NCBI RefSeq assembly: GCF_000426705.1
Contig: NZ_AUFW01000012.1
Location: forward strand, 62,001 to 126,000
Length of the DNA: 64,000 nucleotides
Direction of reading: 5' to 3'
From: Spirochaeta cellobiosiphila DSM 17781
GTDB taxonomy: Bacteria; Spirochaetota; Spirochaetia; DSM-17781
The notes below the pieces were generated by a model. It was not told where the DNA came from and ran no database searches. It saw only the letters and a list, made by a program, of their open reading frames with translations. Below, piece after piece: positions 1,551-63,012 of the stretch (within the stretch, counting starts at the first letter, position 1; the number at the start of each line of letters is the position of its first letter). Position numbers and translations under genes: made by a program.

Positions 1551-1580
1551 TTGATTCAAGATCTTTAATAAAGTTATTAT
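1551..1580 (+). promoter_or_regulatory. promoter of the first chemoreceptor gene, leaderless geometry
   Basis: TTGATT (1551-1556), an 18 bp spacer and TATTAT (1575-1580) lie with the -10 ending 6 nt before the ATG at 1587. No Shine-Dalgarno is present between them, so the mRNA is predicted to start at the A of the start codon. Confidence 0.6.
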
Positions 1581-1586
1581 TATGCT

Positions 1587-3455
1587 ATGTCATATAGATC
1601 ACGATTTCATTTCACTATTAATATTTTAATAGTATTATTCTCCTTAATAGCTTTTGGGTTGGGTAGGAGTGTAGTGAATTTAAATTATAATGCACTCTTT
1701 TTAGGTCTCTCTATTCCATTAATCGGAACAATCATTCTTGCCAATGTTTTTTTTCTCCCTTTGTCTAAGCTAGTAAAAGTTTCGGACTGGGATATGGATA
1801 ACCAAATATTTTTAAAGCGATTTAAATCCTTGGGTGCGGCCCCTCTTCGTTCCCTGCTAATGCTATTGATCCTGTTAATTGGTTTTTTAATGGTCTATAC
1901 ACATTTAGCATTTTCTGATTCAGGGGATCTGCAAGTTTTACTATTCCCTTTCCGAATGGTTTTAGTGGGCTGTGGAATGGTAAGTGGTAGTTTTGTCTAT
2001 GTGCTTTTAGATAGATTAGTCTTATCATTTCTCTATGAAAATCAATTAAAGAGATTTCCAGATAAATTTAACACAAAACGACAACGAAGCAAGGGCATTA
2101 TTATCCCATCATTCATAACTATCATGTCTCTTATCTTTTCTGTCTTTTTAACCTATCTTCAATTGATTAAAGCTATTAATTTAAATGTCGAATCTCAAAA
2201 TGTTTTAGGATTCATACTAGAATCCACTTTCCCTTATTTGATAGCTTTCCTTTTTGTGATTATCCCCTTAATTGTCATCTCTGCGAATAATACTTCAACT
2301 TTGTACAACCTACTTAATCAGCGTTTAGAGGAAATGATTTCTGGAGAGAAAGATATGACAAAGAGAATTACGATTTGCTCTGTTGATGAAATCTCCATGA
2401 TGAGTCATCGGGTGAATTTATTTAGTGAGATAATTTCTAATCACTTGAAAGTAACAAATGGGATGGTTAGAAAACTAACGGAATTTCAACGGCAATTGGT
2501 GGACAATGTGAATTTGTCTTCCGAGGATGTGGTCGCCTTAACCCTGGACATAACAGGTTTATATACTATTATTGAAGAAGAGCACCTCATGGCTAAGGAA
2601 TCAATGATTACTAGTCAAGAATTAATTGGCAATATAGAAAATTCTGTAATACAGGTAGAAAAACAAACGACTTCTATGAGCCAATCCTCAAGTAGTATTG
2701 AACAAATGATAAGATCTATATCTGATACTACAGAACAAATAAATAAAGTGAGAAAACACACTTCAGACATCAAAGAAGTCTTCACAGCAGGACAAGAAAA
2801 AGTAGATAAGACAATTGATTCTGTTGGACGTGTAGCGAATTACTCTGATAGCTTAATTGAAATTAATGACATTATTTCCGGAATTGCCTCGCAAACTAAT
2901 TTATTAGCTATGAACGCTGCCATTGAAGCGGCTCATGCTGGCGAGGCTGGGAAAGGGTTTTCAGTAGTGGCAGATGAGATTCGTAAATTAGCAGAGGATA
3001 CGGCAATTCATACGCAAACCAGTTCTCATAACTTGATTCGGATCCGGGATGAAATTGATGCCTCATTAGTTGCCGCCAGAGAAGCAGGAGATACTTTTAG
3101 TGAAATGAATAAGGGGATTATTCTCATTGACAAAGAAACTCAGAATATTGATACGGCAATGGTAGAACATGATCAGGCTAACAAAGTTGTTCTAGAACAA
3201 TTAAATGTTACACAAAAGGCAACAAATGAATTGAAAACATCCATAAATGAAATCAGCTCTGAAGGTTCTAGTTTACTAGATGCCATGAAAAAGTTATCAG
3301 ATTTTTCCAAAGCAACAATAGATACTTGTCAGAACATGTTAAAACGAAATGAAAGTGTTGATAAAAAAATAAAGGATCTAATAAAAATCACTCAAAATAC
3401 TGGAAAGTTAAGTGAGGTAACATTAAAAAAGATAGATGTCTTCAAACTAGATTGA
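1587..3455 (+). CDS. methyl-accepting chemotaxis protein with a multi-helix membrane domain
   Basis: The 622-residue protein has about six hydrophobic segments in its first 235 residues (near 8-28, 34-56, 84-106, 115-146, 172-193 and 208-231) and no obvious periplasmic ligand domain. A linker follows, then a long coiled coil with the signalling hairpin near residues 430-470 ([19 protein letters not shown], then [17 protein letters not shown]). This tip normally binds CheA and CheW. The membrane region suggests sensing of a signal within the membrane rather than a soluble ligand. The start codon lacks a Shine-Dalgarno and fits the leaderless promoter. ptsP follows with its own promoter. Confidence 0.92.
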
Positions 3456-3461
3456 TTTAGT

Positions 3462-3490
3462 TTGACCATCATCTTCTCCCTTATTACAAT
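3462..3490 (+). promoter_or_regulatory. promoter of ptsP, leaderless geometry
   Basis: TTGACC (3462-3467), 17 bp and TACAAT (3485-3490) are followed by 6 nt and then the ATG at 3497. There is no Shine-Dalgarno. The near-consensus elements and spacing make this one of the clearest examples of the pattern in the window. Confidence 0.7.
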
Positions 3491-3496
3491 TATGGC

Positions 3497-5731
3497 ATGT
3501 CACAAAGCTACTCTCAGATATTAGAATCTATATCAAAACGGATATATCTCTTTGAGTCCATCCATGAGGTGGATGATTTCTTAAAAGATGCCTTATCTCT
3601 TTTAGTAAAAAAAGCAGGTGCTGTTTTAGCTACGATTTTTGTAAGAGATGAGGAAGCAGATCAGCTTGTTTTTAGAGTAGGCTTTGATGAATCAGGATGG
3701 TGGGATAATCAGCGATGCAATAATACTGTACCCATAAGGTTTTCCATAACCGGTAATGATATGGCAGATACCTTTAATAATGACAGGGTTCGATTTGTCA
3801 CTTACTCGCCAGATGATAAAGCTCATCCCTTTGGTTCTAAGATATTTGTACCCATTAAAAGAGGCCCTAACCGATTAGGCGTACTAATAATGGCTCACAA
3901 GGAAATTAACGGCTTTGATAAAGTTAATAAAGAAGATTTACTGGAAGCGGCATCCCGTCTAGGAGATATGTTGCGAGATTCTATGATATTTGTAAATCAC
4001 AAAAATTCTGGTTTTCCTAAAGTTAAGGTAGAAAGATCTAGTATAAAAGGATTAAAAACTTCTGATGGTGTAGCCTTTGGTCACGCCTTACCCATATGGG
4101 CAGATATTAATTCTCTTATGGAAGATTTAGACTCTAAAGGTTCAGTTGAAGAAGAATTGAATCTATTCAATAAGTCATTAACAACATCTCTTGAACAACT
4201 TGAAGAGATTCAATCTTCAAGAGTTTCCATTGATACAGAAATGATTTCATTAATCTTTACAGCACAATACTATATGCTCAAAGATAAAAGTCTGGTCGAA
4301 CGTATCAAGAATCATATTCTGGATGGCGTATCTGCTCCTGAAGCTGTAAAGATTGTTATTGATGAATATGCTAATAGATTCGCTAGAATGAGTGAAGAAC
4401 GTTTGGCTGAAAAGGCTCAGGATGTTAGGGATTTAGGGTTCCGACTCATATCAAATATGAAATCAAACTCTGGTGAAGGTTTTTCCTATAAAGGGAAAAT
4501 AGTTCTCTCTCGACATATCTACCCAACAGATTTATTCCGGTTAGCCGTAGAAAAAGTAGGAGGATTAGTCCTAAGAGGAACAGGAGTTACAGCTCATATT
4601 TCCATATTGGCTAGATCTTTGAATTTACCAGTACTAATCACTGATGATAAGAGTTTACTCTCTATAGAGGAAGGAACTGCTCTGTTATTAGATGCTACAG
4701 GAAGTACTCTCTATATTAATCCAGATCAAAATTTACGGGAACAATACCTTTATAAGTCAAATAGTGCTGTTGGTGAACGGGAATATTATACTCTTAAAGG
4801 TCAAACAAAGGATGGAGTGCGAGTTCAAGTATTGGCAAATGTCAATCTTTATTCTGATGCAAGGATGGCTAACTCACAGGGTGCTGAAGGGATAGGACTT
4901 TATCGTAGCGAATTCCCTTTCATTCTTAAGAAAGATTTTCTCTCGGAAGAGCAGCAATACAGAATCTATCTTGAGATTATAAAGTCCCAGGGAACAAAGC
5001 CTGTCATAATGCGTACGACTGATATTGGTGGTGATAAATTATTACAGGGGAGAACAACGTCAGAGTCAAATCCTTTTCTTGGAGTAAGAGGTATAAGATT
5101 TTCATTGGCCAATAGAGAAATGTTTAGAGATCAGTTACGGGCTATGCTGCGAGCAGGAGCTGGTAAAGATCTAGGAATTATGCTTCCTATGGTGACTGAT
5201 GTGGAGGAAGTCCTTACAGTTAAAGAAGAATTAAAACTTTGTATCCATCAGTTAGAAGAAAGAGGCGCCTTATATAATAAACATCCAAAAATCGGTGCCA
5301 TGGTCGAATTACCCTCGGCTGCCATGTCTGTGGAAGAGATCGCCAAGGAAACAGATTTCTTGTCCATAGGTTCCAACGATTTGACGATGTATTTATTGGC
5401 TGTAGACCGGACTAATGAAAATTTAAGTCACTTGTATCGTTCTCATCATCCTATTGTTTTAAAAGTCTTTGCAGATATTGCTAAAGGATCGGGTGAGCTC
5501 TTATCTGAGCTATCAGTTTGTGGTGATGTTGCTTCGGATCCATTATTAATTCCCTTTTTCATAGGACTAGGTATCAGAAAATTATCAGTAACTCCAGCTA
5601 AAGTTGAAAGCGTAAAACAAATACTAAGTAGTTACACTATAAGAGAAGCAGAGGAACTGGCCAATAAGATCTTATCAATCAAAAGAGTCAAAGAAATGGA
5701 ACAGTTCATAAAGAGTTATTCAAAACTTTAG
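3497..5731 (+). CDS. ptsP: phosphoenolpyruvate-protein phosphotransferase, EI-Ntr type
   Basis: The 744-residue protein joins an N-terminal GAF domain (about 1-170) to a complete enzyme I module. The phospho-histidine site is in GVTAHISILAR (about residues 364-374). The PEP-binding barrel shows GAEGIGLYRSEF, RTTDIGGDK, GIMLPMV, GSNDLTMY and CGDVASDP. The enzyme takes phosphate from PEP and passes it to an HPr or NPr protein. GAF-linked forms serve regulatory phosphorelays rather than sugar uptake. No HPr gene is in the window. It probably has its own leaderless transcript. Confidence 0.93.
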   Translation: MSQSYSQILESISKRIYLFESIHEVDDFLKDALSLLVKKAGAVLATIFVRDEEADQLVFRVGFDESGWWDNQRCNNTVPIRFSITGNDMADTFNNDRVRFVTYSPDDKAHPFGSKIFVPIKRGPNRLGVLIMAHKEINGFDKVNKEDLLEAASRLGDMLRDSMIFVNHKNSGFPKVKVERSSIKGLKTSDGVAFGHALPIWADINSLMEDLDSKGSVEEELNLFNKSLTTSLEQLEEIQSSRVSIDTEMISLIFTAQYYMLKDKSLVERIKNHILDGVSAPEAVKIVIDEYANRFARMSEERLAEKAQDVRDLGFRLISNMKSNSGEGFSYKGKIVLSRHIYPTDLFRLAVEKVGGLVLRGTGVTAHISILARSLNLPVLITDDKSLLSIEEGTALLLDATGSTLYINPDQNLREQYLYKSNSAVGEREYYTLKGQTKDGVRVQVLANVNLYSDARMANSQGAEGIGLYRSEFPFILKKDFLSEEQQYRIYLEIIKSQGTKPVIMRTTDIGGDKLLQGRTTSESNPFLGVRGIRFSLANREMFRDQLRAMLRAGAGKDLGIMLPMVTDVEEVLTVKEELKLCIHQLEERGALYNKHPKIGAMVELPSAAMSVEEIAKETDFLSIGSNDLTMYLLAVDRTNENLSHLYRSHHPIVLKVFADIAKGSGELLSELSVCGDVASDPLLIPFFIGLGIRKLSVTPAKVESVKQILSSYTIREAEELANKILSIKRVKEMEQFIKSYSKL

Positions 5732-5749
5732 TAAGACCTTCCTGTCTCC

Positions 5750-5755
5750 GATAAT
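5750..5755 (+). promoter_or_regulatory. -10 element of the VWA gene, leaderless geometry
   Basis: GATAAT at 5750-5755 is followed by 6 nt and the ATG at 5762. A weak -35 (TTTAGT, 5727-5732) sits 17 bp upstream, overlapping the ptsP stop. No Shine-Dalgarno is present. Confidence 0.45.
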
Positions 5756-5761
5756 TGACTT

Positions 5762-6889
5762 ATGAAGAAGGTACTGGTTTTTTGTTTAATCTTATTATCC
5801 ACTATATATTCTTTTGCCCAGGATCTCACTTTGAGTGCAGAAGATCTCTATATGGAAGCTTCCATAGAAGGTGGTTATCATCTGTATATTCGTAAGAAAC
5901 CGGATATCAATTCTGTAATGTTAACAAATACTTCAAAAGACCCTAACCTTAAGGTCCCCTCCTTTGCCTTAAGAAGTAGTGAATATAATCCTATCAATGG
6001 AGATGAAAAAAGGATGCTTGATGGTATCTTCTTACCTGATGGCCACAATTCACTTATAGACTCAACTGTTGAAGATAATGAACGTTTTGGAGAAGCCTTC
6101 CATATTTTTATTCCCTACATAAGTCTCTATGGTAATACCTGGAATGCTTATGGGATAAATGGTTCTCTGTATACCTATGATGGCTCCTGGATAGGTATTA
6201 GGACTTTTACAACGCCCTATGCTGATTATAGAGGACAATATGCTGATAATCCCTTTATTATGCATATGACCCAGGCGCCTCCCAAAGATATTCCTGCTGG
6301 AACAGTAGCAGTACATAAAGATGTGGAAAAAACATTTCCCGTGTTAGCAGAGGAATCGGGTGGTGAGACTTTATATAGCAACGGTGGGGAAGATCTTGTT
6401 GATGAAATAGATAGAATTATATCAGACATTGATGCTGACACATTAGATCTGGTCATTGCTCTGGATACTACATCCAGCATGGAAGATGACATTGCGTTTA
6501 TTAAGAATAGGCTTATCCCAATTATTAAAAATGAAGTTAACAAGTTTAAGATATTTCGTCTTGGATTTGTCTACTATCGTGATTACTTTGCTGAATATTT
6601 GACTAAAACCGTTCCCTTTAGAGAAGATTTAGACTCATTGCAAACAGACCTCGAGCGTTTAACAGTAGGTGGGGGACGGGATCTTCCCGAAGCCGTTTAT
6701 GAAGGGATAGATGCGGGAATACATAACTTTGACTGGATAGCCCAGGCACGTCATATCATTCTGATTGGTGATGCTCCTCCCCACCCTGTCCCAAGGGGAA
6801 AGACTAAGATAGTAACAGAACAAACAGTCATTAAGGATGCCAGAGAATTGGGTATCCAAATTACAACTATCATGCTACCCAGTAATTAA
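5762..6889 (+). CDS. secreted von Willebrand factor A domain protein
   Basis: The 375-residue product has a cleavable signal peptide (about residues 1-19, ending SFAQ), so it is exported. A C-terminal VWA domain begins near residue 230 with LDLVIALDTTSSM, a MIDAS metal site of the DxTxS kind, and continues with GFVYYRD and the late strand HIILIGDAPPHP. VWA domains bind protein partners through a divalent metal. The N-terminal 200 residues are not recognised. It is divided from ptsP by 30 bp and appears to have its own promoter. Surface or periplasmic adhesion or scaffolding is likely but not shown. Confidence 0.8.
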   Translation: MKKVLVFCLILLSTIYSFAQDLTLSAEDLYMEASIEGGYHLYIRKKPDINSVMLTNTSKDPNLKVPSFALRSSEYNPINGDEKRMLDGIFLPDGHNSLIDSTVEDNERFGEAFHIFIPYISLYGNTWNAYGINGSLYTYDGSWIGIRTFTTPYADYRGQYADNPFIMHMTQAPPKDIPAGTVAVHKDVEKTFPVLAEESGGETLYSNGGEDLVDEIDRIISDIDADTLDLVIALDTTSSMEDDIAFIKNRLIPIIKNEVNKFKIFRLGFVYYRDYFAEYLTKTVPFREDLDSLQTDLERLTVGGGRDLPEAVYEGIDAGIHNFDWIAQARHIILIGDAPPHPVPRGKTKIVTEQTVIKDARELGIQITTIMLPSN

Positions 6890-6952
6890 ATTTGATAAAA
6901 CATTCAACTTCTGTCATATTTTAGGACACTATTTAAGATAGGAGTTGTTAAC

Positions 6953-16105: not shown

Positions 16106-17275
16106 TTATTCCTGCAAAGATGAGCGATGCCAGTTCTCAACCATCTGGGAGAAGTTTTCCTCATTCTTTTCAATCCGGGGATTTTCAAACCAGGGAATTA
16201 ATCCTGTTTCTACAAAGTCATCCCAGTGTTCCGGGATGTGATGATATAATTCAAAGTCCTCGGAACGGGGAAACCTGTGGGCTAATTGTTTATATAGACT
16301 GCTCAGATATTCATTGCTTGCTTTTATCGTTGATAAGCCGCCATAGGCCCCTTTGATCAAATCTTTTGACTCTAAACGACTATCGATAATCCTTTTTTGA
16401 TTATTGCTATCCAAAAGCCAATTTACCATTTCCAAGGGTGTTTTCTTCTTGAGCCCTTCTGGAGTCAATCCAATGCTTAGATACTGGGGAAGGCTTTCAA
16501 GTTTTGAATCTGTATTAAAAAAGTAGAAATTGGTTTCGCTTCTAATATTTTCAGGCATTTCCAGCCACTCTTCAAAGGTGACAAGCCAAAATTTAATACG
16601 TCCTGAAGTTAATAAATTATAAGGATGTTCAATAAAATATTTCTTACGAAATCCATTATCGTAATCTATGAAAGTCGTTAATTTTGTAATAGCTTCCTTC
16701 ATCACGGAACTATCCCAACTGATGAAATCAGAGCCCAGTTGGATGTTAGTATCATATGATAGAAGTAAAGTATCCAAAAACTTTGGCTGCCATAAAGGAT
16801 TATAGCCTCTTCGAGCAGAAGTTGAAGTACTTATAACATTATATTGTATAGCCTGATCTGTAAGTGTCCCCATATCTATGGACAAGGGAAAAACATTAGG
16901 AGCTTGAGATTTATCAATGAGAACAAGGGGTACATCAAAGGCTAAAGGGATTATCTTGTTCTCATTGTCTAGTATGACCGTTTGTGCAGATTCGATAAAT
17001 TTATCTATGTTCATATCTGTCAGCCAGTCTTTGGGGTACTCGTCCAGTAATTCCAAATGACCTGGATTGTTGAGGTTATTGCCAATGTAAATATCAACCG
17101 TTTCCTGAGAATGTGTTGGCAGAATGGTAATATTTATATCCGGATTATCCTGATTATATAATTCAATAGCCTTAAGCATTGCTACTGAATCAGTCCTGAT
17201 ATTAATATCCATTCCTTTTGAAGAACAGGAGAATAGTATGAGAGATAGTAAGACAATAATAATGTATGGCTTCAT
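16106..17275 (-). CDS. solute-binding-like lipoprotein
   Basis: The 389-residue product has a lipobox LFSCS (Cys about residue 17). The sequence has the look of an ABC extracellular binding protein for sugars (ELYNQDNPDINITILP near the start, later FISWDSSVMKEAITKLTTFIDYDN and TSGRIKFWLVTFEEW) but is divergent. Placement just upstream of a MalK-type ATPase on the same strand suggests a link to transport, though no permeases are present. The promoter is leaderless in geometry and there is no Shine-Dalgarno before the ATG. Confidence 0.75.
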   Translation of the reverse strand: MKPYIIIVLLSLILFSCSSKGMDINIRTDSVAMLKAIELYNQDNPDINITILPTHSQETVDIYIGNNLNNPGHLELLDEYPKDWLTDMNIDKFIESAQTVILDNENKIIPLAFDVPLVLIDKSQAPNVFPLSIDMGTLTDQAIQYNVISTSTSARRGYNPLWQPKFLDTLLLSYDTNIQLGSDFISWDSSVMKEAITKLTTFIDYDNGFRKKYFIEHPYNLLTSGRIKFWLVTFEEWLEMPENIRSETNFYFFNTDSKLESLPQYLSIGLTPEGLKKKTPLEMVNWLLDSNNQKRIIDSRLESKDLIKGAYGGLSTIKASNEYLSSLYKQLAHRFPRSEDFELYHHIPEHWDDFVETGLIPWFENPRIEKNEENFSQMVENWHRSSLQE

Positions 17276-17281
17276 AAAAGG

Positions 17282-17310
17282 AATCTAGGCCAAACTAAGG
17301 GTATTGTCAA
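17282..17310 (-). promoter_or_regulatory. promoter of the solute-binding lipoprotein gene, leaderless geometry
   Basis: On the minus strand TTGACA (17305-17310), 17 bp and TAGATT (17282-17287) are followed by 6 nt and the ATG (17275-17273). The -35 lies in the 14 bp palindrome TGTCAACGTTGACA at 17305-17318, which could be an operator. Confidence 0.7.
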
Positions 17311-17324
17311 CGTTGACATGTCTA

Positions 17325-17353
17325 TTGTCATTACCATCTTCATTAATCATAAT
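17325..17353 (+). promoter_or_regulatory. promoter of the radical SAM gene, leaderless geometry
   Basis: TTGTCA (17325-17330), 17 bp and CATAAT (17348-17353) end 6 nt before an ATG at 17360. This supports 17360 as the start rather than an in-frame ATG at 17318, which would sit upstream of the promoter. Confidence 0.65.
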
Positions 17354-17359
17354 ACAACC

Positions 17360-18292
17360 ATGGATGCACCCATTGTTTTTAATAATTATAGCCGGTACTT
17401 AAAAAAGAAATACAATAAACCAGCCTACAGACTTGGTCTGGATGGGGGGTTTTCCTGCCCTAATCGAGGCAAAGATCGTACTAAAGAGGGATGCTCCTAT
17501 TGTGATGCCTATGGGGCGAGAGCTCCTTATTTGACTGGAGCACATAGTCTCACTGATCAAATTCGTCAAAGTCTTGGTTTTTTAAGACAAAGATACGGCG
17601 CAGAAATCTTTTTGTTATATTTCCAGGCCTATACCAGTACCTGGGCTCCTCTGGATAGGTTGAAAGCCCTTTATGATAGTGCCTTGTCTGAGGCGGATTT
17701 TCGGGAACTCATCGTCTCCACTAGACCTGATTGTTTTGGTGATAAAGTGGCTGATCTTCTAAGCTCTTATCGAACAGAAGAACGAGAAGTGTGGGCTGAG
17801 TTTGGGCTTCAGAGCGCAAAGGATATAACTCTAAAACGAATAAACAGAGGGCATGGAGTCAAGCAATACATCGAATCGGTTAAGAGAGCTCAAGATAGGG
17901 ATATAAAAATTGTAACACACCTAATATTCGGGTTGCCCGGGGAAACTGAACGGGATATATTGGATTCTGTAGACTTTGTTGTTGATCAGGGAGTCCAGGG
18001 GATTAAGATTCATAATCTGCATATTCCTCAGCACTCACCTTTATACAAAGACTATATTTCCGGTGAGATAACCCTTCCAAGTATGGAACGGCATATGGAT
18101 TATTGCCAAAAGGCTTTGGAACGGATACCTGAGGATATTGTAATATTACGTTTGACCAATGATACTATGAAGGATGGTACCTTGTTACCTGGTGTGATGT
18201 GGGACAAAACATTCTTCTATGATCGCCTAAGACGTAGAATGGGGGAAGCCGGAAGTTTTCAGGGCTGTAAGTATAAAAGAAGGGTGGAATGA
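17360..18292 (+). CDS. radical SAM protein, YhcC-like family
   Basis: The protein (310 residues from the start at 17360) shows the radical SAM [4Fe-4S] cysteine cluster in GGFSCPNRGKDRTKEGCSYC, a long-spaced variant typical of the YhcC/TIGR01212 family. A GLPGE motif and NRGHGVKQY follow as in other members. It is a cytoplasmic SAM enzyme; the exact substrate is not established for this family. An in-frame ATG at 17318 would add 14 residues not seen in relatives. The small gene at 18299 follows by 6 bp and is probably in the same operon. Confidence 0.88.
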   Translation: MDAPIVFNNYSRYLKKKYNKPAYRLGLDGGFSCPNRGKDRTKEGCSYCDAYGARAPYLTGAHSLTDQIRQSLGFLRQRYGAEIFLLYFQAYTSTWAPLDRLKALYDSALSEADFRELIVSTRPDCFGDKVADLLSSYRTEEREVWAEFGLQSAKDITLKRINRGHGVKQYIESVKRAQDRDIKIVTHLIFGLPGETERDILDSVDFVVDQGVQGIKIHNLHIPQHSPLYKDYISGEITLPSMERHMDYCQKALERIPEDIVILRLTNDTMKDGTLLPGVMWDKTFFYDRLRRRMGEAGSFQGCKYKRRVE

Positions 18293-18862: not shown

Positions 18863-20158
18863 TTAACCAAATAACTTATCTGAAGCCTCAAAGACCGCAT
18901 TATATAAGTCCTTAAGGTCCCTTTTATCTACTGCAGCATAGGCAATTCGTAAGTATTTTGTTCCAATAGCAATGGTTCCAATACCTTCTTCTTTGAGCAA
19001 GTGAATTCTTAAATCCTCTGCACTGCCTTTTTTAAGTTGGAAGGACATAAAGTAACCAGAGTTAAAAGGAACTACTTCCAGGTTAAGTCCTGTTTTTCGT
19101 TCTTCAACAATCTTTTTAACTTCTTTGTAGCGATCTTCTAACAGGTGGTAATACTTAATCTTTACACCATGATAGATCAAGCTTGACAATTCTTTATGTA
19201 AAATAGTCTGACCGGCTCTGCTGGAGTTACTTATTGTTCCTCTCAAGGCTCCTGTCAGTTTTTCTTCCAGTGCAAAATAATGATCAGAAGTAAGGCCTTT
19301 TCCTCCAAAAGTAACGAAACCGATTCGAAAACCCCATACAAAGTCTTCCTTTGTTGCTCCATCAACTTTTACAGCAAGAATATTATCATGAGCTCTTGAA
19401 AAGAGACTGAACATTGACTCTCTATAGATATCGCCTTCATAAAACAAGCCAAAATAAGCATCATCGGATATCACAAGGAGGTGTGTACCTTCCTCGGCAA
19501 TTTTATAAATACCTTCATTTATTGCTTCCGCTTCCTCCTTTGTAGGGCTATAGCCTGTAGGATTGTTGGGGAAGTTAAGAAGGACAATCGCTTTTTTGTT
19601 TATTTGTTTTTCTTTAATTGTGGATAATAATCCTTCCACATTAAAAGTACTCTTATCGTTAAAGAAGGGAAATGTGCAAATCTCAGCTTCTCGTCTGACT
19701 TCAAAGATAAGGTTGTAGTTGCCCCAATACATATCAGGCATGATGACAACATCACCAGCATTGACAAATAGATCTGCAGTCTGACTAATTCCGTTAGTCA
19801 AGCCAGGCACAACCATAGGTTGACTAACCTTATCTTCATCAATACCTGGATTTTTCCGGATCATCTCCTCTTTCCATACCTTACGCAACCTTTCCTCACC
19901 AGGGGTGGGAGCATAAGAGACTGACTCAGTGGGACTAAGACGGGGTAAATTATCCTGTACTGTAGGCAGGATCATCGGTTCCCCTTCATTAACAGCCATA
20001 CCTGTGGTTGCATTGTAACGGGTAGCTTTTCGATTCGCTTCACCCGCTTGTCGAGCTATTCCCTTTGGGAAATACATCCGTTGTCCTAAGTCTGATAGTA
20101 AGGCACCTGCACTTGTACCTTCTAGTTTTTTATTCAGTTCGACTGCAAGTTTATTCAT
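18863..20158 (-). CDS. PLP-dependent aminotransferase, class I/II
   Basis: The 431-residue enzyme transfers amino groups between amino and keto acids using pyridoxal phosphate. Motifs include VVPGLTNGISQTADLF, LLNFPNNPTGYSP and VISDDAYFGLFYEG, with the Schiff-base lysine near the segment KVDGATKEDFVWGFRIGF, followed by the conserved Arg. The length is usual. The substrate cannot be read from the sequence. It has a near-consensus leaderless promoter and lacks a Shine-Dalgarno. The response regulator gene is immediately upstream on the same strand and ends at the edge of this promoter. Confidence 0.92.
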   Translation of the reverse strand: MNKLAVELNKKLEGTSAGALLSDLGQRMYFPKGIARQAGEANRKATRYNATTGMAVNEGEPMILPTVQDNLPRLSPTESVSYAPTPGEERLRKVWKEEMIRKNPGIDEDKVSQPMVVPGLTNGISQTADLFVNAGDVVIMPDMYWGNYNLIFEVRREAEICTFPFFNDKSTFNVEGLLSTIKEKQINKKAIVLLNFPNNPTGYSPTKEEAEAINEGIYKIAEEGTHLLVISDDAYFGLFYEGDIYRESMFSLFSRAHDNILAVKVDGATKEDFVWGFRIGFVTFGGKGLTSDHYFALEEKLTGALRGTISNSSRAGQTILHKELSSLIYHGVKIKYYHLLEDRYKEVKKIVEERKTGLNLEVVPFNSGYFMSFQLKKGSAEDLRIHLLKEEGIGTIAIGTKYLRIAYAAVDKRDLKDLYNAVFEASDKLFG

Positions 20159-20165
20159 GTTCTTG

Positions 20166-20194
20166 AGAATACTATTTGTCTAAAGTTTGGTCAA
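20166..20194 (-). promoter_or_regulatory. promoter of the aminotransferase gene, leaderless geometry
   Basis: On the minus strand TTGACC (20189-20194), 17 bp and TATTCT (20166-20171) end 7 nt before the ATG. The -35 abuts the stop codon of the upstream response regulator gene at 20195. Confidence 0.65.
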
Positions 20195-22922: not shown

Positions 22923-24216
22923 AAGTATAGTTCTCCAATTTGGCGGCAAGATGAATGGGGACTTTGGCTATGACCTTTGTTCCTGCCTCCAGGTATTCCG
23001 TTTCCAGTATCTGAGCTTCTCTATGGAGAAGGCTAACCAGATCATGTCTAGTATGGGGAAATAAATATTCCTCTGTCTGAAAGGTGTGGGATAACTTTTG
23101 CTCTAGGGCCTTAACCAGTTCTTCTAACCCTAAACGTTCATGGAGGGATATGAACAAAGCGTCCGGAAACTCATTCTGAAGCATCTGCTTGTGAATCAGA
23201 TCATCCTGAAACTTATCAAGCTTATTAAACACTGTTATCGTAGGTTTATCATTAACCCCCAGCTCTCCCAACACAGCCATAGTGGCTTTGTAATGATCTA
23301 AAACTTCCGGGTTAGAGCCATCGAGAACATGAACAAGGAAGTCAGCCATGACCGTCTCTTCCAAGGTAGATTTAAAGGCTTCTACCAAGCTATGGGGAAG
23401 CTTACGGATAAACCCTACTGTGTCCGTCACCAGCAGTTCCTGACCTAAAGGAAGCTTAACTTTTCTTGTGGTAGGATCCAATGTAGCAAAAAGCTTATCC
23501 TCTGCCAAAACCTCTGAATCGGTTAAGGTATTTAGTAAACTGGATTTTCCCGCATTGGTATATCCCACGATACTGGCCGTGGGGACTGGACGGGCCTTTC
23601 GTTTTTTTCGCTGGATAGCTCTACTGCTTTGAACTTTGATTAATTCTTTCTTCAGGGCATCCATCTTACGAAGAACGATACGTCTATCGATTTCTAGTTG
23701 AGTCTCTCCTTCCCCTCTGGTTCCTTTTGTTCCACCCCGTTGACGGGATAAGTGTGTCCAGGCTCTGGTTAATCTGGGGAGTGAGTATTCCATCCGGGCC
23801 AGGGCGACCTGGAGGACTGCTTCTCTGGTTTGCGCTCTATCGGCAAAGATATCCAGGATAACTTCCTGTCTATCGATAACGGTTACCTGACTATTACGTT
23901 CCCAGTTTCTCTGTTGGCTAGGACTTAGATCATCATTAAATATGATGAGATCAGCTTCGACTTCCTTAGCTTCTTCAAGGATTTCTTCTACCTTTCCCGT
24001 TCCAATAAGGTATTTAGGCTGGGGATTCCGTAATTTGACAAGGGAATGCCCAATAGGTTCTATGCCCATAGTATGAACGAGACTGTATAATTCTGTAATA
24101 TGCTCTTCAGCTTCTTCTTCCTTCATATCCGGATACTGAATACCCACAAGGAAGGCCCGTTCACATTTCTCGCTTAAAATATCTTGTTCTTCTGATTGAA
24201 GATTTATATCACTCAT
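22912..24216 (-). CDS. hflX: ribosome-associated GTPase HflX
   Basis: The 434-residue GTPase has an N-terminal HflX domain (NDDLSPSQQRNWE, GTKGTRGEGETQLEIDRR) and a C-terminal G domain with G1 GYTNAGKSSLL, G3 DTVGFIRKLPHSLV and G4 NKLDK. HflX splits or rescues stalled 70S ribosomes under stress. Its promoter is leaderless in geometry, with no Shine-Dalgarno, and its 3' end overlaps pgeF. The gene is divergent from the small cysteine protein gene at 24306. Confidence 0.96.
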   Translation of the reverse strand: MSDINLQSEEQDILSEKCERAFLVGIQYPDMKEEEAEEHITELYSLVHTMGIEPIGHSLVKLRNPQPKYLIGTGKVEEILEEAKEVEADLIIFNDDLSPSQQRNWERNSQVTVIDRQEVILDIFADRAQTREAVLQVALARMEYSLPRLTRAWTHLSRQRGGTKGTRGEGETQLEIDRRIVLRKMDALKKELIKVQSSRAIQRKKRKARPVPTASIVGYTNAGKSSLLNTLTDSEVLAEDKLFATLDPTTRKVKLPLGQELLVTDTVGFIRKLPHSLVEAFKSTLEETVMADFLVHVLDGSNPEVLDHYKATMAVLGELGVNDKPTITVFNKLDKFQDDLIHKQMLQNEFPDALFISLHERLGLEELVKALEQKLSHTFQTEEYLFPHTRHDLVSLLHREAQILETEYLEAGTKVIAKVPIHLAAKLENYTFDF

Positions 24217-24224
24217 GGTTTAAA

Positions 24225-24253
24225 TTCATACTTCAGGGGAGGTCTGTGGTCAA
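24225..24253 (-). promoter_or_regulatory. promoter of hflX, leaderless geometry
   Basis: On the minus strand TTGACC (24248-24253), 17 bp and TATGAA (24225-24230) end 8 nt before the hflX ATG. There is no Shine-Dalgarno. Confidence 0.65.
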
Positions 24254-24270: not shown

Positions 24271-24299
24271 TTGAAAGAAAAGAGCTTCCTCGACATAAT
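24271..24299 (+). promoter_or_regulatory. promoter of the 54-residue cysteine protein gene, leaderless geometry
   Basis: TTGAAA (24271-24276), 17 bp and CATAAT (24294-24299) end 6 nt before the ATG at 24306. No Shine-Dalgarno is present. It lies back to back with the hflX promoter. Confidence 0.65.
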
Positions 24300-24305
24300 G
24301 AATCC

Positions 24306-24470
24306 ATGGAAGCTCCTAAATGTCTGCTATGCCGGTATTATTATGTAACCTACGATATTAGATTTCCTAGAGGATGCCGTAAGTTCGGTATCAAGAGTTA
24401 TCATCTACCCTCTTTGGAGATCTATCGTGCCAATAAGGCCCATTGTCCCAGTTTTACCCCGAAGAAATAA
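24306..24470 (+). CDS. small four-cysteine protein
   Basis: This 54-residue frame begins with ATG at 24306 and ends with TAA at 24468-24470. Cysteines at 6, 9, 24 and 47 (CLLC, RGC, HCPSF) suit a zinc or Fe-S site. The pattern CxxCxYYYVTYDxxFPxGC then LPSLxIY and CPSFTPK is familiar from a widespread family of 50-60 residue bacterial proteins, often left unannotated. Its function is not known to me. A near-consensus promoter stands just before it. It ends 7 bp before the convergent malic enzyme gene. Confidence 0.75.
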   Translation: MEAPKCLLCRYYYVTYDIRFPRGCRKFGIKSYHLPSLEIYRANKAHCPSFTPKK

Positions 24471-24477: not shown

Positions 24478-25755
24478 TTATAATGTCTTAGATAATTCTT
24501 CCAGGTGTTTGCGGTACCCCGCCCAATCTTTAATTGGCTTTTGAGCAATACCTTCCTCACAGGCGGCTTTTGCTACGGCTAAGGATTCTTCAATAAAAAC
24601 CCTCTTATCAAATGGTTTAGGAACGATATAGTTTGGGCCGAAGGAGAAATCCTCTCCCCCATAAGCTTTTATCACGTCCTCAGGGACAGGTTCTTTAGCT
24701 AAAGCGGCAAGGGCTTTAGCTGCTGCCATCTTCATATTCTCTGTTATGGAGGTAGCCCGCACATCCAGTGCTCCCCGGAAGATAAAGGGAAATCCCAACA
24801 CATTATTTATCTGGTTGGGATAGTCACTACGACCTGTCGCCATGATAATATCCGGGCGTGTTTCTTTGGCTAAGGGGTAGGTGATTTCCGGATCAGGATT
24901 GGCCATGGCAAAGACAATAGGCTGTGGAGCCATAGATTTGAGCATAGCTGGAGTGAGAATGTTAGGGGCTGATAAGCCAAAGAAAACATCCGCACCAAGG
25001 ATAGCTTCCTCCATAGTTCGGGCCGGGCTGTCTGAAGCCCATTGGGCCTTCTCCGGGAACATTTCCTCTGTACGTCCTTTGTAGACGACTCCGATTATGT
25101 CACACATGATGATATTCTCTTTGGGCACACCCAACGTTGCGAGCATTTTGACACAACTAAGACCTGCCGCCCCTGCACCGGAAAAGACGATCTTCACTTG
25201 ATCCAGTTTTTTCCCAGTAACCTCCAGGGCGTTTAAAAAGCCCGCTGCGGATATGATAGCTGTCCCATGTTGGTCATCATGGAAGACGGGTATGTTCATG
25301 ATTTCCTTCAGCTTTGTCTCTATTTCAAAACATTCTGGCGCTTTGATATCTTCCAGATTGATGCCACCAAAAGTTGGCTCCATCAGGCTAACCGCTTGAA
25401 TAAAAGCCTGTGGGTCTGTTGTATCCAATTCTATATCGAACACGTCAATTCCGGCAAACTTCTTAAATAAGACCCCCTTACCCTCCATAACAGGCTTGGA
25501 CGCTGCAGCCCCTCTATTGCCCAGACCAAGAATGGCGGTTCCATTGGAGATCACTCCTACCAGGTTGCCCTTCGCCGTATAGTTATAGATTTGATTTTCC
25601 TCTTCTGCTATAGCCAGAACAGGTTGGGCTACCCCGGGAGAGTAGGCCAGGGCTAGATCTTCAGCACTGGAACATTCCTTTGTCGGTACGACCGATATTT
25701 TGCCAGGTGTTGGATACCTGTGATAATCTAAAGCATTTTTATCTGAAGCCATCAT
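24478..25755 (-). CDS. NAD(P)-dependent malic enzyme
   Basis: The enzyme (425 residues from the start chosen here) decarboxylates malate to pyruvate. It has malic motifs [42 protein letters not shown] and HDDQHGTAI, and a Rossmann motif [17 protein letters not shown]. It matches the bacterial short form without the C-terminal phosphotransacetylase domain. I start it at ATG 25755 (or the ATG at 25752) because -10 ATTAAT (25762-25767) ends 6 nt before it; an upstream TTG at 25770 is open but lies inside that promoter. The enzyme links to the fermentative pyruvate genes nearby. Confidence 0.93.
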
Positions 25756-25897
25756 ATCCCCATTAATCAATAAGTATTCCTTACTCTACAAATCTTGGAT
25801 ATAAATTTAAAGTCCCATGTTGTAAGGTCTAGGCTTTTCTTAGTGGGTATTATTGGTTATACTTTCCAGCGAAAATATTAGAATACAAGGAAATAAA

Positions 25898-32582: not shown

Positions 32583-32620
32583 TACTTGCTCTTATCGTAA
32601 ATATTTAGCATTTTGTAATA

Positions 32621-41708: not shown

Positions 41709-42574
41709 TACTTCTTCTTCTGTACAATAAAAATCCATAGGGCTGCAAAGACTATAATAATACCTCCTATGATGGAATAAGTATCAGGTACTTCCTGCCA
41801 AAGAATAAAGCCAAAAAGCGCTGAGAATACAATATTTGAATAGGAATAAATGGATACTTTAGATGCTTCAGCAAATTTATAGGATATGGTTAGGAAGTAC
41901 TGTCCTCCAGCAGCAAATACTCCTATGAGCAAAAGGGATATAAGTTCTGAACTATCAGGAACTCTAAATCCTTTGATCATCATTAGGCCTGATAGTAATA
42001 AGGATACTAAGGAGAAATAGAACAAAATAACTGTTGAACGTTCGTTTCTGTTATGAAGACCTCTGATTATGGTATAGGCCACACCCGCCAGAAGTCCTGA
42101 AGTAAAACCTGATAAAGCCGGGAGCATGGAATAATTCCAAGTAGGTTTAATAATGAAGAGGGCTCCTGTAAAGGCTAAAACCAAGGCCACGACTTCTTTC
42201 TTTGTGATTTTTTCTTTAAGAAACAATCCTGCGAAGAAGGTGACAAAGAAGGGGCTGAGTTTGTTGAGTACTGAAGAATCAGCCAAGTTCATTTGACTGA
42301 TAGCATAGAAATATCCTAAGACACCTAAAAAACCAAAGAGGGATCTGAGTAATAATAATCCGCGGTTTCCTTTTCGCCCCCATAAACTATAATTGGGTTT
42401 ACTGATCCATGAGGCAAGGGGAATGATGAGAACCACCAGGTTGCGGAAAAAGACCCTTTCCATTAAGGGGAGAGAATTGGATCCTTTGACAAAGAGAGCC
42501 ATAAGCGCAAAGGCTAAACCTGATAATATCATAAAGATGACGGCCAAAGGATATTGATTGTTTTGTGATTTCAT
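41708..42574 (-). CDS. DMT-superfamily membrane transporter (EamA type)
   Basis: The 288-residue protein has about ten membrane helices in two similar halves, with EamA hallmarks such as PLMERVFFRNL, NKLSPFFVTFFAGLFLKEKITKKE and VALVLAFTGALFI in the first half and FSALFGFILWQEVPDTYSIIGGIIIV in the second. Family members export metabolites or amino acids; the substrate is unknown. The promoter (42581-42609) has leaderless geometry, and no Shine-Dalgarno is seen. It is followed by the Nudix gene in an operon. Confidence 0.9.
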   Translation of the reverse strand: MKSQNNQYPLAVIFMILSGLAFALMALFVKGSNSLPLMERVFFRNLVVLIIPLASWISKPNYSLWGRKGNRGLLLLRSLFGFLGVLGYFYAISQMNLADSSVLNKLSPFFVTFFAGLFLKEKITKKEVVALVLAFTGALFIIKPTWNYSMLPALSGFTSGLLAGVAYTIIRGLHNRNERSTVILFYFSLVSLLLSGLMMIKGFRVPDSSELISLLLIGVFAAGGQYFLTISYKFAEASKVSIYSYSNIVFSALFGFILWQEVPDTYSIIGGIIIVFAALWIFIVQKKK

Positions 42575-42580
42575 TTTGTT

Positions 42581-42609
42581 ATCATATCGGTAAACTCCTT
42601 GCTAGTCGA
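42581..42609 (-). promoter_or_regulatory. promoter of the DMT transporter gene, leaderless geometry
   Basis: On the minus strand TCGACT (42604-42609), 17 bp and TATGAT (42581-42586) end 6 nt before the ATG. No Shine-Dalgarno is present. Confidence 0.55.
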
Positions 42610-44880: not shown

Positions 44881-44962
44881 TTGTGGAGGAAACAATTTTC
44901 TAACATGAGCAAGTTTTCCTGTCCATTGTAAGGAAATCGTAGCCAAAGTTTTTATTTGTTCC

Positions 44963-44968
44963 TATAAT
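44963..44968 (+). promoter_or_regulatory. -10 element of the cyclic-nucleotide-domain gene, leaderless geometry
   Basis: A perfect TATAAT at 44963-44968 ends 7 nt before the ATG at 44976. No Shine-Dalgarno is present and the -35 is weak. Confidence 0.6.
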
Positions 44969-44975
44969 AAAATTA

Positions 44976-47453
44976 ATGGAAGTATTTGATCTCAACCAGA
45001 GGGTAGCCAATAAAAAAGTTGAAGCTGGGACAATTTTGATCCTTCAAGGTCAAAGTGAGAAAGCTATTACTATGGTTCATTCAGGAATGGCTGAATTGTT
45101 ATCCTGTGAATCTGATATTGAAGGAATGTCTCCTGATGAAGTTATTAAGAGCAGTGTCCGTGTCGGATTAATTAAAGGGGAATCTGTCTGTGGGGTCGTT
45201 GGCTTAAGAAGTCCTAGACCTAGCTATACTTCTGTATTGACCGTGACTGATTGTATTATTACCAATCTTCCTGTAAGTGTAGAAAATCTTATTCAATCCT
45301 TACAGTCTCGTATTCGTTTAAATTTAAGAGTTCTCAGAGCTTTGGTACAACGTATTGAATCGGCTGTTTTTCTCTTCAAGAATTATAAATACTTATGGCA
45401 TAAATTAGCTTCCATTCAGGATAGTATCGCTTTAGCTACTACTACCCATGAAGCGTTTGAAATAAAAAGTGATCAAACTCGTTATAATATGTCTTTGAGT
45501 CAGTATTCTGAATATTTGAGAAAATTGGGGTCTGATAAAAATCTCCCTCTTTCTGAGCCATGGGATCATAATTTATTCTTGGGAAGACTACAGCAGGATC
45601 TGGGACTGTACAATGAAGAGGATTTACTAAGACCTGAAGCTGTGATTGATTATCAGCAGTTTGTTTTTTTTAAAAGGCTGGTGAAGAAGTCTGATAAAAT
45701 ATTAGCCAATCTATTCTATCAGGATGAACCTTCTAATTATTATACCTTTCAATTTCTTGGTAAGGCCATGGAACAGTTGTTGGATCTCAATAAGTCTATG
45801 GTTCTTAATATCAAAAGCTTGATGGGAATACTGTATTCGGCTGGGGGATGGGTTGAGCAAATCCTGGCTTTGGATGGTGATGACGAAAATAAAAAGAATA
45901 TCTTCGATCACTTTATGGCCAAATTTACCTGGCATTGTCGTAAAGACATCCAACAATTGCTGGGTTATGATCCTGCAGAACAATTCGATATATACAAAGA
46001 TCTGGTAAAGCTCAAAAGCGCACCTGTAGTAACAGAAGCAAAAGCTTCCAAAGATGTTCCTGTCGTTAAAACAGATCAAGCTTTAGGTCAAGGTTTGGCC
46101 AAGTATAAAAACTTGTTAAAACGAATACTGGATTTTGCTGAAGTCAGTGATGAGTTCCGGGAGACCTTTACAGAACTTACTTATAAGATAAAAGCATTGA
46201 AAGATCGTTATTCCATGGATAAAGAACCTATAGAGCTTAGAAAAGAATTCAGTGCTATGTATTGGGAACTGTATGAGATATGTTTTTTCAAAGTCTTAGG
46301 ATCAGATCTGAAGAGCTTTATACCTGGTATCATGTTGCATTTTGGTCTTATTGATGAGGATTTTTTAACCAAAGAGGACCTCGAATTCTTGGATCAGGCC
46401 TATAGTAAGGAATTGTTTGTAGATCATGACATTCCTGTAATGACACTCCCGTACTTCTTGGAAAAGGTTTACAAAGATGAAGTTATGCCTTCAATGGATG
46501 ACATGGGTGACTCCTTTAGGGATAGGCTCAAACGTCAGGAACGGTTCACTAAGAAGGAAACCGAGGCTGAAATCATTTATAGAAATACAGCAGAAGATAA
46601 AGTTCGCTATGAGATAGAGAAAATTGTAGCCAATGTACAGCCCTTGTTGTTTGGTAATAGACGGCGCTCTCTTCCTATCTTGTGCAGCCAGGGATTTTTA
46701 GGTAAGTCAGAACGTTTATTTCAGGAACCAGAAGAGGTAAGCCAACGTTTTAACGAAGTGAGAACAAGGGATTTTTCTGTATTTTTCAGGGAAGTTGTGG
46801 CCCATTCCAAGTTTGGATCTGATGTTATCAAGATGGAAGTCCTTCCCAATATTGTTCTGTATCCCACCATTGGTGAACGAATGATGATGTGGCAGGAATT
46901 AGATGGGCGTAAGCGTTCTACCCAGGGCCGATTCTTTTTACCTCTCTATTTTAATGGTAAACTGGAATCTTCGATCCTTGAACTGTTGGGAGCTTTCCGT
47001 TGGGAGATGAGTAAAACTATTGCCGGTGCTAAGTGGACTGATCCTGTTGAGGGCGGCTTAGTAGGATATTACTATGATTATATTAACTTTTATCAAAAGC
47101 ATCCTAAATTATCTTTAACTGTCAAGGAAGAGATCAAAGCATTAGTGAAGAAGACTCGTTCTGATAAAGAACGATTTATCAAAGATTATCAAACCTGGAT
47201 TGAAAATGAATATGAAGGCCGGGTTAAACTTAATGCTGCTAATAGAGAGATCTTTTATAAGTTCTGTCCTTTCCCTAAGGAAGTTAGGGAAGTATTAGCT
47301 AAAAAGCCATTGTATACGAGCTTGGAGAATCGGTATGTGAATAATACTCGTAAGGCTATGTTACGTATGGATAGTAAACGTAAGAGGTTTGAGAAAGCAG
47401 GTATCCCACTTCCTGAAGATCTTGAATTATACATCAAGTACCTAGAGCAATAA
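44976..47453 (+). CDS. large protein with an N-terminal cyclic-nucleotide-binding-like domain
   Basis: The 825-residue protein begins with a cNMP-like beta-barrel (residues about 10-110: GTILILQGQSEKAITMVHSG, SVRVGLIKGESVCGVVGLRS) but I see no clear phosphate-binding cassette. The remaining 700 residues are helical and unrecognised. They include VRYEIEKIVANVQPLL and a region rich in Phe and Trp at 610-690. There is no membrane helix or signal peptide. The gene is monocistronic with a leaderless promoter and converges on the PHP gene (2 bp between the stops). A regulatory role is possible but not established. Confidence 0.7.
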   Translation: MEVFDLNQRVANKKVEAGTILILQGQSEKAITMVHSGMAELLSCESDIEGMSPDEVIKSSVRVGLIKGESVCGVVGLRSPRPSYTSVLTVTDCIITNLPVSVENLIQSLQSRIRLNLRVLRALVQRIESAVFLFKNYKYLWHKLASIQDSIALATTTHEAFEIKSDQTRYNMSLSQYSEYLRKLGSDKNLPLSEPWDHNLFLGRLQQDLGLYNEEDLLRPEAVIDYQQFVFFKRLVKKSDKILANLFYQDEPSNYYTFQFLGKAMEQLLDLNKSMVLNIKSLMGILYSAGGWVEQILALDGDDENKKNIFDHFMAKFTWHCRKDIQQLLGYDPAEQFDIYKDLVKLKSAPVVTEAKASKDVPVVKTDQALGQGLAKYKNLLKRILDFAEVSDEFRETFTELTYKIKALKDRYSMDKEPIELRKEFSAMYWELYEICFFKVLGSDLKSFIPGIMLHFGLIDEDFLTKEDLEFLDQAYSKELFVDHDIPVMTLPYFLEKVYKDEVMPSMDDMGDSFRDRLKRQERFTKKETEAEIIYRNTAEDKVRYEIEKIVANVQPLLFGNRRRSLPILCSQGFLGKSERLFQEPEEVSQRFNEVRTRDFSVFFREVVAHSKFGSDVIKMEVLPNIVLYPTIGERMMMWQELDGRKRSTQGRFFLPLYFNGKLESSILELLGAFRWEMSKTIAGAKWTDPVEGGLVGYYYDYINFYQKHPKLSLTVKEEIKALVKKTRSDKERFIKDYQTWIENEYEGRVKLNAANREIFYKFCPFPKEVREVLAKKPLYTSLENRYVNNTRKAMLRMDSKRKRFEKAGIPLPEDLELYIKYLEQ

Positions 47454-57456: not shown

Positions 57457-57843
57457 ATGGCAAAGATGAGCTTAGCTGATTTAAAAGCCCTTCGTGATCA
57501 GAAACGATCCGAGATGGCTAGAAGAACAAGTGAAGGAAAAATTGTCGATATCATTATTGGAATGGGAACATGTGGAATTGCAGCTGGTGCAAAAGATGTT
57601 CTTAATACATTTGTTGAAGAGATCAATAGTAAACAATTAGAAGGTATCGTAATAAAACAGACAGGTTGTATGGGGCTATGTCACTCTGAACCTACTGTTG
57701 AAGTTCATATGGCAGGAATGCCTGATACAATTTATGGCAATGTTAATTCTGAAGTAGCGCGAAAAATTATAGGTGATCATATTCAAGGTAAAAAACTCGT
57801 TTCCGGTCATGTCTTTGACAAACCTGCTACGGACATTAAGTAA
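57457..57843 (+). CDS. hndB: HndB-type [2Fe-2S] subunit of the hydrogenase
   Basis: The 128-residue protein has a thioredoxin-like [2Fe-2S] fold with cysteines in GTCGIAAGA and TGCMGLCHSEPTV. Such subunits accompany NAD(P)-linked [FeFe] hydrogenases (HndB or HydC-like). The C-terminal tail after about residue 110 is extra. AAGGAG precedes the ATG and the HndC gene follows by 11 bp. Confidence 0.88.
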   Translation: MAKMSLADLKALRDQKRSEMARRTSEGKIVDIIIGMGTCGIAAGAKDVLNTFVEEINSKQLEGIVIKQTGCMGLCHSEPTVEVHMAGMPDTIYGNVNSEVARKIIGDHIQGKKLVSGHVFDKPATDIK

Positions 57844-57854
57844 GGAGAATATAT

Positions 57855-59648: not shown

Positions 59649-59662
59649 GAGAAAGATTAGTC

Positions 59663-61405: not shown

Positions 61406-61412
61406 TATAACT

Positions 61413-61445
61413 ATCCCCTGACTTTAACAGTCAGGGGATGTTTTA
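61413..61445 (+). terminator. rho-independent terminator of the hydrogenase operon
   Basis: ATCCCCTGACT (61413-61423), loop TTAAC and AGTCAGGGGAT (61429-61439) form a perfect 11 bp GC-rich stem followed by GTTTTATT. Confidence 0.92.
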
Positions 61446-61501
61446 TTCTAATATCAAAAATGAACTTGAAATATAAGTACTTAGCCTACCTTGTTCGCTA
61501 C

Positions 61502-61530
61502 TTAATCTACGACAAATATTATGCTATAAC
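61502..61530 (+). promoter_or_regulatory. promoter of the membrane LuxR gene, leaderless geometry
   Basis: TTAATC (61502-61507), 17 bp and TATAAC (61525-61530) end 6 nt before the ATG at 61537. No Shine-Dalgarno is present. Confidence 0.55.
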
Positions 61531-61536
61531 TTCTTT

Positions 61537-63012
61537 ATGAAAAGGTTTATCTTCTTATTTTTTATATTTAATATCATGATATATTCTGTTGTTAGTCAGG
61601 ATTTGCCTCATATAAAAATTGATAAAACATGGGCATATGAAGGTGAGATTTTTGATTTAACTGTCGTGATTCCTGATAATAAATTGAAAACAATACAGGA
61701 TGTTAAATTAAGTCTTGGAAGTGGGGCCTTACGTATTCAGTCAGAAAAATCCGGATCTGGATATTCTTTTGATGTGGTCACGAATATACAGAAGGTCTGG
61801 GAGAACAGAATATTCACTATGTATCCCACATCAAATGACAAGGTAAGTATAAGTGCCTATATTACCTATGATGATGGCAGTGTCTATACTACTCCTTATA
61901 TTTATATCAATGTACTTAAAGTCCCATCCATAACGGAGTTGGGTGCTGTTATTCTTAATATGACTGATAGTGTATATACTGCTAGAATTCCTGGTAGTGC
62001 CATGATTGAGGTCATATCCTATGATTATCTAGCTGAAAGCTATACTTCAATGATTGATAATATAAAAACGGCCTTGGCGGTGGAAGCCTTTTGGTCTTTA
62101 AATAGGTCCCTTATTTATAATAACCAAGAATACAGGATTTTTTCATTCCCACTTTCCCTAGTATTCCAAAACGAGGGTGAATATAAAATACTTCCAGATA
62201 AATTACTTCTCGAATTCAGATCTTCAGAGAGAGAGATCATATATAAAGAATTACCTGTATATCAAAACTCTTTAAATGTTAGAAAAGTAGCATTGGATGA
62301 GAAATATCCTGTTTATGGAGATTATCTATCAATTGAAACAAAGGATTATCCCCAAAAATTAAAGAATGATACTAAGACTGAATTTTATATAAAGTTGGCA
62401 ACAGATGGTTTGTTTACCTTCGAAAGTCTTAGACCTTATATTTCCTTACCTAAATTTTTAGAGGAAGAAGTCTTACGTCAAAAAATAGTATGGAATGATG
62501 ATCATGCTGAAAGGGTTCTAAATTTTAAATATGCGGGACGGGCTGAGTCCTACATAGGATATAATGTTAGTGATCTGATTATTCCTTTTCAGAAAAAAGA
62601 TGGAACTATTGATACTTATGAACTTGGCTTCGCTCCTATTGATGGCAATGTGAATTATATAGCCTTTATCTCTTTCATAGGTGTAATTGCTTTTCTTTTC
62701 ATTGGAGGAATATTTTTCTTCTATCTGTATCTTAAGAAGATTACAAAGAAGAAAAAGATCCAACTTCCAAAAGATGAAATGAATACAGCTCAACTACTCC
62801 TATTTAGTCAAGAATATGAACTCACCAAACGTGAGCAGGATATTCTGAATGTTTTAATTGATGGTAAGTCTACTAAGGAAATTGCACAGGATTTGTATAT
62901 TTCTCCAGAGACAGCAAAAAAACATATTAAGAACATAATGAAGAAGACTAATACTAAATCACGCTTAGAAATATTTGTACTTGTATCCCATTATATTAAG
63001 AAAAAAAGCTAA
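61537..63012 (+). CDS. membrane-anchored transcription regulator with a C-terminal LuxR helix-turn-helix
   Basis: The 491-residue protein begins with a signal peptide (about 1-20, ending VVSQ), continues with a beta-rich periplasmic region of about 350 residues, then has one membrane helix (about 372-396, ending in a KKITKKKKI cytoplasmic anchor), and ends in a LuxR-type helix-turn-helix (about 425-490: LTKREQDILNVLIDGKSTKEIAQDLYISPETAKKHIKNIMKKT). This puts a sensor outside and the DNA-binding domain inside, an architecture seldom described for LuxR proteins. The GC repeats and membrane/lipoprotein genes that follow may be its targets. Confidence 0.88.
   Translation: MKRFIFLFFIFNIMIYSVVSQDLPHIKIDKTWAYEGEIFDLTVVIPDNKLKTIQDVKLSLGSGALRIQSEKSGSGYSFDVVTNIQKVWENRIFTMYPTSNDKVSISAYITYDDGSVYTTPYIYINVLKVPSITELGAVILNMTDSVYTARIPGSAMIEVISYDYLAESYTSMIDNIKTALAVEAFWSLNRSLIYNNQEYRIFSFPLSLVFQNEGEYKILPDKLLLEFRSSEREIIYKELPVYQNSLNVRKVALDEKYPVYGDYLSIETKDYPQKLKNDTKTEFYIKLATDGLFTFESLRPYISLPKFLEEEVLRQKIVWNDDHAERVLNFKYAGRAESYIGYNVSDLIIPFQKKDGTIDTYELGFAPIDGNVNYIAFISFIGVIAFLFIGGIFFFYLYLKKITKKKKIQLPKDEMNTAQLLLFSQEYELTKREQDILNVLIDGKSTKEIAQDLYISPETAKKHIKNIMKKTNTKSRLEIFVLVSHYIKKKS

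Follow-up and report, generated by a model that had tools for sequence, protein, structure and literature searches.

The window analyzed here is a stretch of 64,000 nucleotides from Spirochaeta cellobiosiphila DSM 17781, corresponding to positions 62001-126000 of its contig; the source assembly measures 3.95 Mb in 29 contigs, and 16S rRNA was not found in it. An earlier note on the window listed twelve genes, on both strands, in which a -10 hexamer ends 6-8 nt before the start codon and a Shine-Dalgarno (SD) sequence is missing. On inspection of the sequence, the -35 box, spacer, -10 box and gap (the distance from the -10 box to the start codon) were as listed for all twelve, and an SD core (GGAG, GAGG or AGGA) was present at normal distance in none of them (0/12). 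The genes concerned include ordinary conserved ones: PtsI/PtsP-like, MnmL/YtqA radical SAM, aminotransferase, HflX, malic enzyme and MCP.

Promoter-like sites at start codons of the window

As a background for each site, the 90 nt upstream of its gene were dinucleotide-shuffled 2000 times (P values given for individual sites are from these shuffles). Nine of the twelve sites (1587, 3497, 17275, 17360, 20158, 24216, 24306, 42574 and 44976) are significant singly at P<0.03, two are borderline (5762, P=0.053; 61537, P=0.082) and one (25755, P=0.28) is indistinguishable from chance.

The leftmost site, TTGATT-18-TATTAT with a gap of 6 nt (1551..1586, plus strand), precedes the ATG at 1587 of a methyl-accepting chemotaxis protein with an MCP signalling domain (P=0.029). 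TTGACC-17-TACAAT, also at gap 6 (3462..3496, plus strand), precedes the ATG at 3497 of a PtsP/PtsI-like phosphotransferase (P=0.002; P(L)=1.00 in the mixture model described below), and TTTAGT-17-GATAAT, gap 6 (5727..5761, plus strand), that of a von Willebrand A-domain protein at 5762, which is a weak example (P(L)=0.69).

Two divergent genes have a site each: a lipoprotein-like protein with its ATG at 17275 on the minus strand (TTGACA-17-TAGATT, gap 6; 17276..17310; P=0.001), and an MnmL/YtqA-family radical SAM protein with its ATG at 17360 on the plus strand (TTGTCA-17-CATAAT, gap 6; 17325..17359; P=0.002). A perfect palindrome, TTGTCAACGTTGACAA, lies between these starts (17276-17359) and contains the minus-strand -35; it looks like an operator. 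An element resembling TTGTCAATCCCG is kept upstream of relatives of the 17360 gene.

On the minus strand, TTGACC-17-TATTCT at gap 7 (20159..20194) leads to the ATG at 20158 of a class I/II aminotransferase (P=0.011), and TTGACC-17-TATGAA at gap 8 (24217..24253) to the ATG at 24216 of the GTPase HflX (P=0.006). Divergent to hflX, on the plus strand, TTGAAA-17-CATAAT at gap 6 (24271..24305; P<0.0005) stands before the ATG at 24306 of a 54-aa Cys-containing protein; relatives of this protein (24306-24470), which lacks a Pfam match, occur in three further spirochaete genomes (L106, L110 and L299). TTGTAG-18-ATTAAT, gap 6 (25756..25791, minus strand), upstream of the malic enzyme ATG at 25755, is the doubtful example: an in-frame TTG at 25770 is a rival start for this gene, and the gene model favors different starts for 25755, 1587 and 61537.

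The remaining sites belong to an EamA transporter (TCGACT-17-TATGAT, gap 6; 42575..42609, minus strand; ATG at 42574; P=0.011), an 825-aa protein without a family match (TAGCCA-17-TATAAT, gap 7; 44940..44975, plus strand; ATG at 44976; P=0.001; P(L)=1.00) and a LuxR-type regulator, the second borderline case (TTAATC-17-TATAAC, gap 6; 61502..61536, plus strand; ATG at 61537). One extra candidate, absent from the earlier list, is TTGCTC-17-CATTTT at gap 6 (32586..32620, plus strand; P(L)=0.90), upstream of the ATG at 32621 of a HAD hydrolase (Hydrolase_3).

Abundance of the layout in the genome

The frequency of such sites was determined in 864 kb (740 kb of contig C24, 60 kb of the window's contig and the window itself), a sample that holds 596 called genes and represents 22% of the genome. 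A sigma70-like site was defined by at least nine of twelve matches to the E. coli consensus boxes with a spacer of 16-18 nt; the reference start of each gene was its 5'-most in-frame ATG, chosen blind to promoters. Sigma70-like sites were found 28 times at gap 6-7 (18 at gap 6 and 10 at gap 7), compared to a background of 8.8 per two positions at gaps 10-40. The shuffled control named in the earlier note was run, and did not reproduce the enrichment: the expectation for the two gaps together is 5.4 +/- 2.4, with a maximum of 12 in 100 shuffles. The peak spans one to two nucleotides. Internal in-frame ATGs have none (mean of about 1.5 per position), and second or third ATGs do not show it either. 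A genome-wide count that is independent of the gene caller gave 176 instances of TTGACA-N27-30-ATG vs 128 with a control spacing of N39-42, matched to it in reading-frame residues (P=0.0035). For exact TATAAT before any ATG of the whole genome the difference was not significant (216 vs 192, P=0.13), a count that is too noisy because every ATG of an AT-rich genome enters it.

In the mixture model both the start of each gene and its class (promoter, SD or none) are latent, and the boxes are learned unsupervised. The model recovered TATAAT and TTGACt de novo, with a 17-nt spacer (weight 0.63) and gaps of 6 (0.57), 7 (0.32) and 8 nt (0.09). Decoys, seven in number, were obtained by retraining the same model at shifted positions. 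The log-likelihood at the true position is 19305 vs 19219-19258 for the retrained decoys; genes at P>0.9 number 43 of 596 at the true position vs 5-14 in six of the decoys and 22 in the seventh, whose shift (24) falls on the -35 itself. Roughly 30-40 of the 596 genes (5-8%) clear background, a value nearer a lower bound because degenerate promoters are missed; at most, about a fifth of genes do so. The raw class fraction (about 22% of genes) was set aside as inflated, non-retrained decoys giving about 77 genes at P>0.5 vs 124 real ones. Decoys trained on the real position were dropped as well – they overfit small genomes and produce a false excess even without any -10 motif – and the retrained decoys were substituted.

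The earlier note had spoken of a systematic use of leaderless mRNA next to normal SD genes. A class above the controls exists, but it comprises only a minority of genes; a strong SD is the main mode and is used by most. An SD is present in 1.5% of the modelled promoter class vs 85% of the SD class, a difference that arises partly by selection. ATG is the start codon of 66 of 68 genes in the promoter class vs 272 of 333 SD genes (P=0.0007), a bias that is partly circular because the model learns start codons. Among high-scoring genes, 48% have a divergent upstream neighbor, vs 22% (P=0.0003), an excess of promoter-proximal genes. The pyrimidine that a transcription start would be expected to have at -1 shows no enrichment (57% vs 48%, P=0.18), and a transcription start exactly on the A of the ATG is therefore predicted from spacing alone.

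Conservation in orthologues and in other genomes

For three window genes, upstream regions of orthologues from other families were searched for a sigma70-like site at gap 6-8 and compared to 500 shuffles; the nearest genomes compared share only the class with S. cellobiosiphila, with no close relative among them. The layout was present in 13 of 29 orthologues of the aminotransferase (20158; shuffle mean 0.28, maximum 3 in 500), 7 of 28 of hflX (24216; mean 0.22, maximum 2 in 500) and 3 of 24 of the radical SAM gene (17360; mean 0.10, maximum 2 in 500). TTGACA is kept at a fixed distance in orthologues, GC-rich genomes included. The aminotransferase orthologues, at about 50% identity, align from residue 1 in almost all cases, and the start is therefore fixed independently of the promoter; the 825-aa protein (44976) has the same start in four full-length relatives, again aligned from residue 1.

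Of the 30 aminotransferase genes analyzed, the promoter layout (with a gap of up to 9) accounts for 16 and an SD for 8, which leaves 6 without either. On the aminotransferase protein tree the layout needs 3 changes vs 7.0 for shuffled labels (0 of 500 as low), and it is common to at least 10 families. The aminotransferase layout is inherited, with occasional switches to SD. On the hflX tree the layout labels are not clustered.

The TANNNT test was calibrated on 200 kb of E. coli K-12 and on 200 kb of Deinococcus deserti plasmid 1. There is no peak in the 200 kb of E. coli (1 site vs 5.1 expected); the D. deserti plasmid has 8 sites vs 1.4 expected, at the same gap. Since leaderless mRNAs of D. 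deserti are known from RNA-seq, the shared gap supports the view that gap 6-7 marks leaderless genes. The strongest signal among the sampled spirochaetes is that of genome G026 (3,285,855 bp, GC 56%; L189-L198), with 22 TANNNT sites vs 3.7 and 39 of 138 genes at P>0.9. A clear excess over retrained decoys was not seen in samples of 150-200 kb from G007, G024, G025, G023, G018 and G078.

Probable leaderless transcription and its alternatives

Leaderless transcription is very probably the best explanation of the layout, given the spacing, a -35 placed 17 nt from the -10, the absence of an SD, start codons that are almost always ATG and the conservation in orthologues; 5' ends, sigma factor and translation route are predicted. 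A minority of genes, mostly single or first in their unit, would have a promoter fused to the start codon and would be transcribed by the housekeeping sigma70 RNA polymerase. With a -10 box that ends 6-8 nt before the ATG, transcription would start at the A or within about 1 nt of it, and the mRNA would have neither a 5' leader nor an SD. The 5'-terminal AUG would be translated presumably as in other bacteria, with direct initiation by 70S ribosomes or with the assistance of initiator tRNA. The majority of the remaining genes, above all those within operons, rely on a strong SD.

It could be argued that the hexamers are not promoters but an AT-rich, weakly structured initiation context (ribosomal protein S1 sites, for example) on mRNAs that do have leaders: the genome itself is rich in AT, and non-SD genes commonly have an AT-rich stretch ahead of the start codon (PMC5397173). 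This is very improbable, however, because a -35 with a 17-nt spacer was learned jointly with the -10, because the distance of TTGACA is conserved in orthologues, also in GC-rich genomes, and because the peak is so narrow and is absent in E. coli. Still less probable is a general misassignment of start codons, with the real starts lying downstream behind an SD and the promoters giving rise to ordinary leaders. The rival start of 25755 and the other starts that the gene model prefers for 25755, 1587 and 61537 fit such an error, but aminotransferase orthologues align from the first residue at the same start, the 825-aa protein agrees with its four full-length relatives, and the peak is missing at second, third and internal ATGs. 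That the sites are chance near-matches, picked from many in an AT-rich genome, is hardly credible: three of them (25755, 5762 and 61537) are not significant singly, but chance is contradicted by all the controls (shuffles, decoys, E. coli and orthologues). Further promoters upstream of these genes may add a leader to some transcripts.

Leaderless transcription in Mycobacterium tuberculosis was reportedly described by Cortes in 2013. In that species, in D. deserti and in others the distance from the end of the -10 to the start codon is likewise 6-7 nt, but the leaderless share is larger than the approximately 5-8% detected in S. cellobiosiphila. Leaderless genes are already known in bacteria, including spirochaetes (PMC5243855, PMC3160421); leaderless transcription is attributed to 21.6% of bacterial species by GeneMarkS-2 (Lomsadze 2018, as cited in PMC9581028), and for D. 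deserti the RNA-seq evidence is that of de Groot 2014 (as cited in PMC5243855). In Leptospira interrogans, of the same phylum, leaderless and SD genes likewise stand side by side: dRNA-seq gave 430-450 genes with a primary TSS no more than 10 nt from the start codon, 184 of these with the TSS exactly on the start codon at 30 C, with no sigma70-type motif upstream of TSSs (PMC5243855). The leaderless mRNAs of L. interrogans are thus experimental, whereas those of S. cellobiosiphila are ones that we infer, but with canonical -35 and -10 boxes in plain view. Among 18 spirochaete genomes, Zheng et al. 2011 predicted TA-led genes in 6, at a mean of 3.9% of genes (range 1.8-6.9%; PMC3160421); such genes are defined by a -10-like TANNNT some 10-12 nt upstream of the start codon. 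Their survey covered the genomes of 2010, with this lineage outside its coverage, and used -10 signals only; the -35, the decoys and orthologue conservation are added here.

The per-gene conservation of the layout across spirochaete families is new: we did not find a description of it in the open-access literature. Leaderless transcription, known from Leptospira, would also occur in a deep lineage of the class Spirochaetia. Single genes hold on to a promoter fused to the start codon across family-level distances, while their relatives change to SD. Gene starts and promoters could be annotated jointly in these genomes; start predictors that assume an SD will misplace leaderless starts.

A second family has the -35 in place and lacks a canonical -10. 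In 200 kb of genome G140 (family f60; L222-L231), TTGNC begins 33-37 nt upstream of a start codon in 22 cases vs 3.5 expected (P=4e-11), and the number of TANNNT sites at gap 6-7 in the same 200 kb matches background (3 vs 2.8). Over the whole genomes of G140, G171, G185, G209 and G225, TTGACA at the leaderless distance was found 676 times vs 409, and TATAAT 168 times vs 163, which is no excess. In sequence this looks like the leaderless layout with a -35 but no canonical -10. One tentative idea, which we hold to be somewhat doubtful, is that the leaderless layout is ancient in the phylum and became fixed one gene at a time, and that in f60 it depends on promoters with a strong -35 (-33 to -35 from the start) and without a canonical -10. 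If true, this would account for the many leaderless mRNAs of L. interrogans without a recognized sigma70 motif, and would define a distinct promoter type. The Lepto_longest family, a Leptospira-type marker, was found in f60 relatives of G140.

A separate observation concerns the right edge of the window, where a LipL32-family lipoprotein gene (PF12103, E=5e-63), here outside Leptospira, starts (63704-64000) and continues beyond it (125704-126222 of the contig in all).
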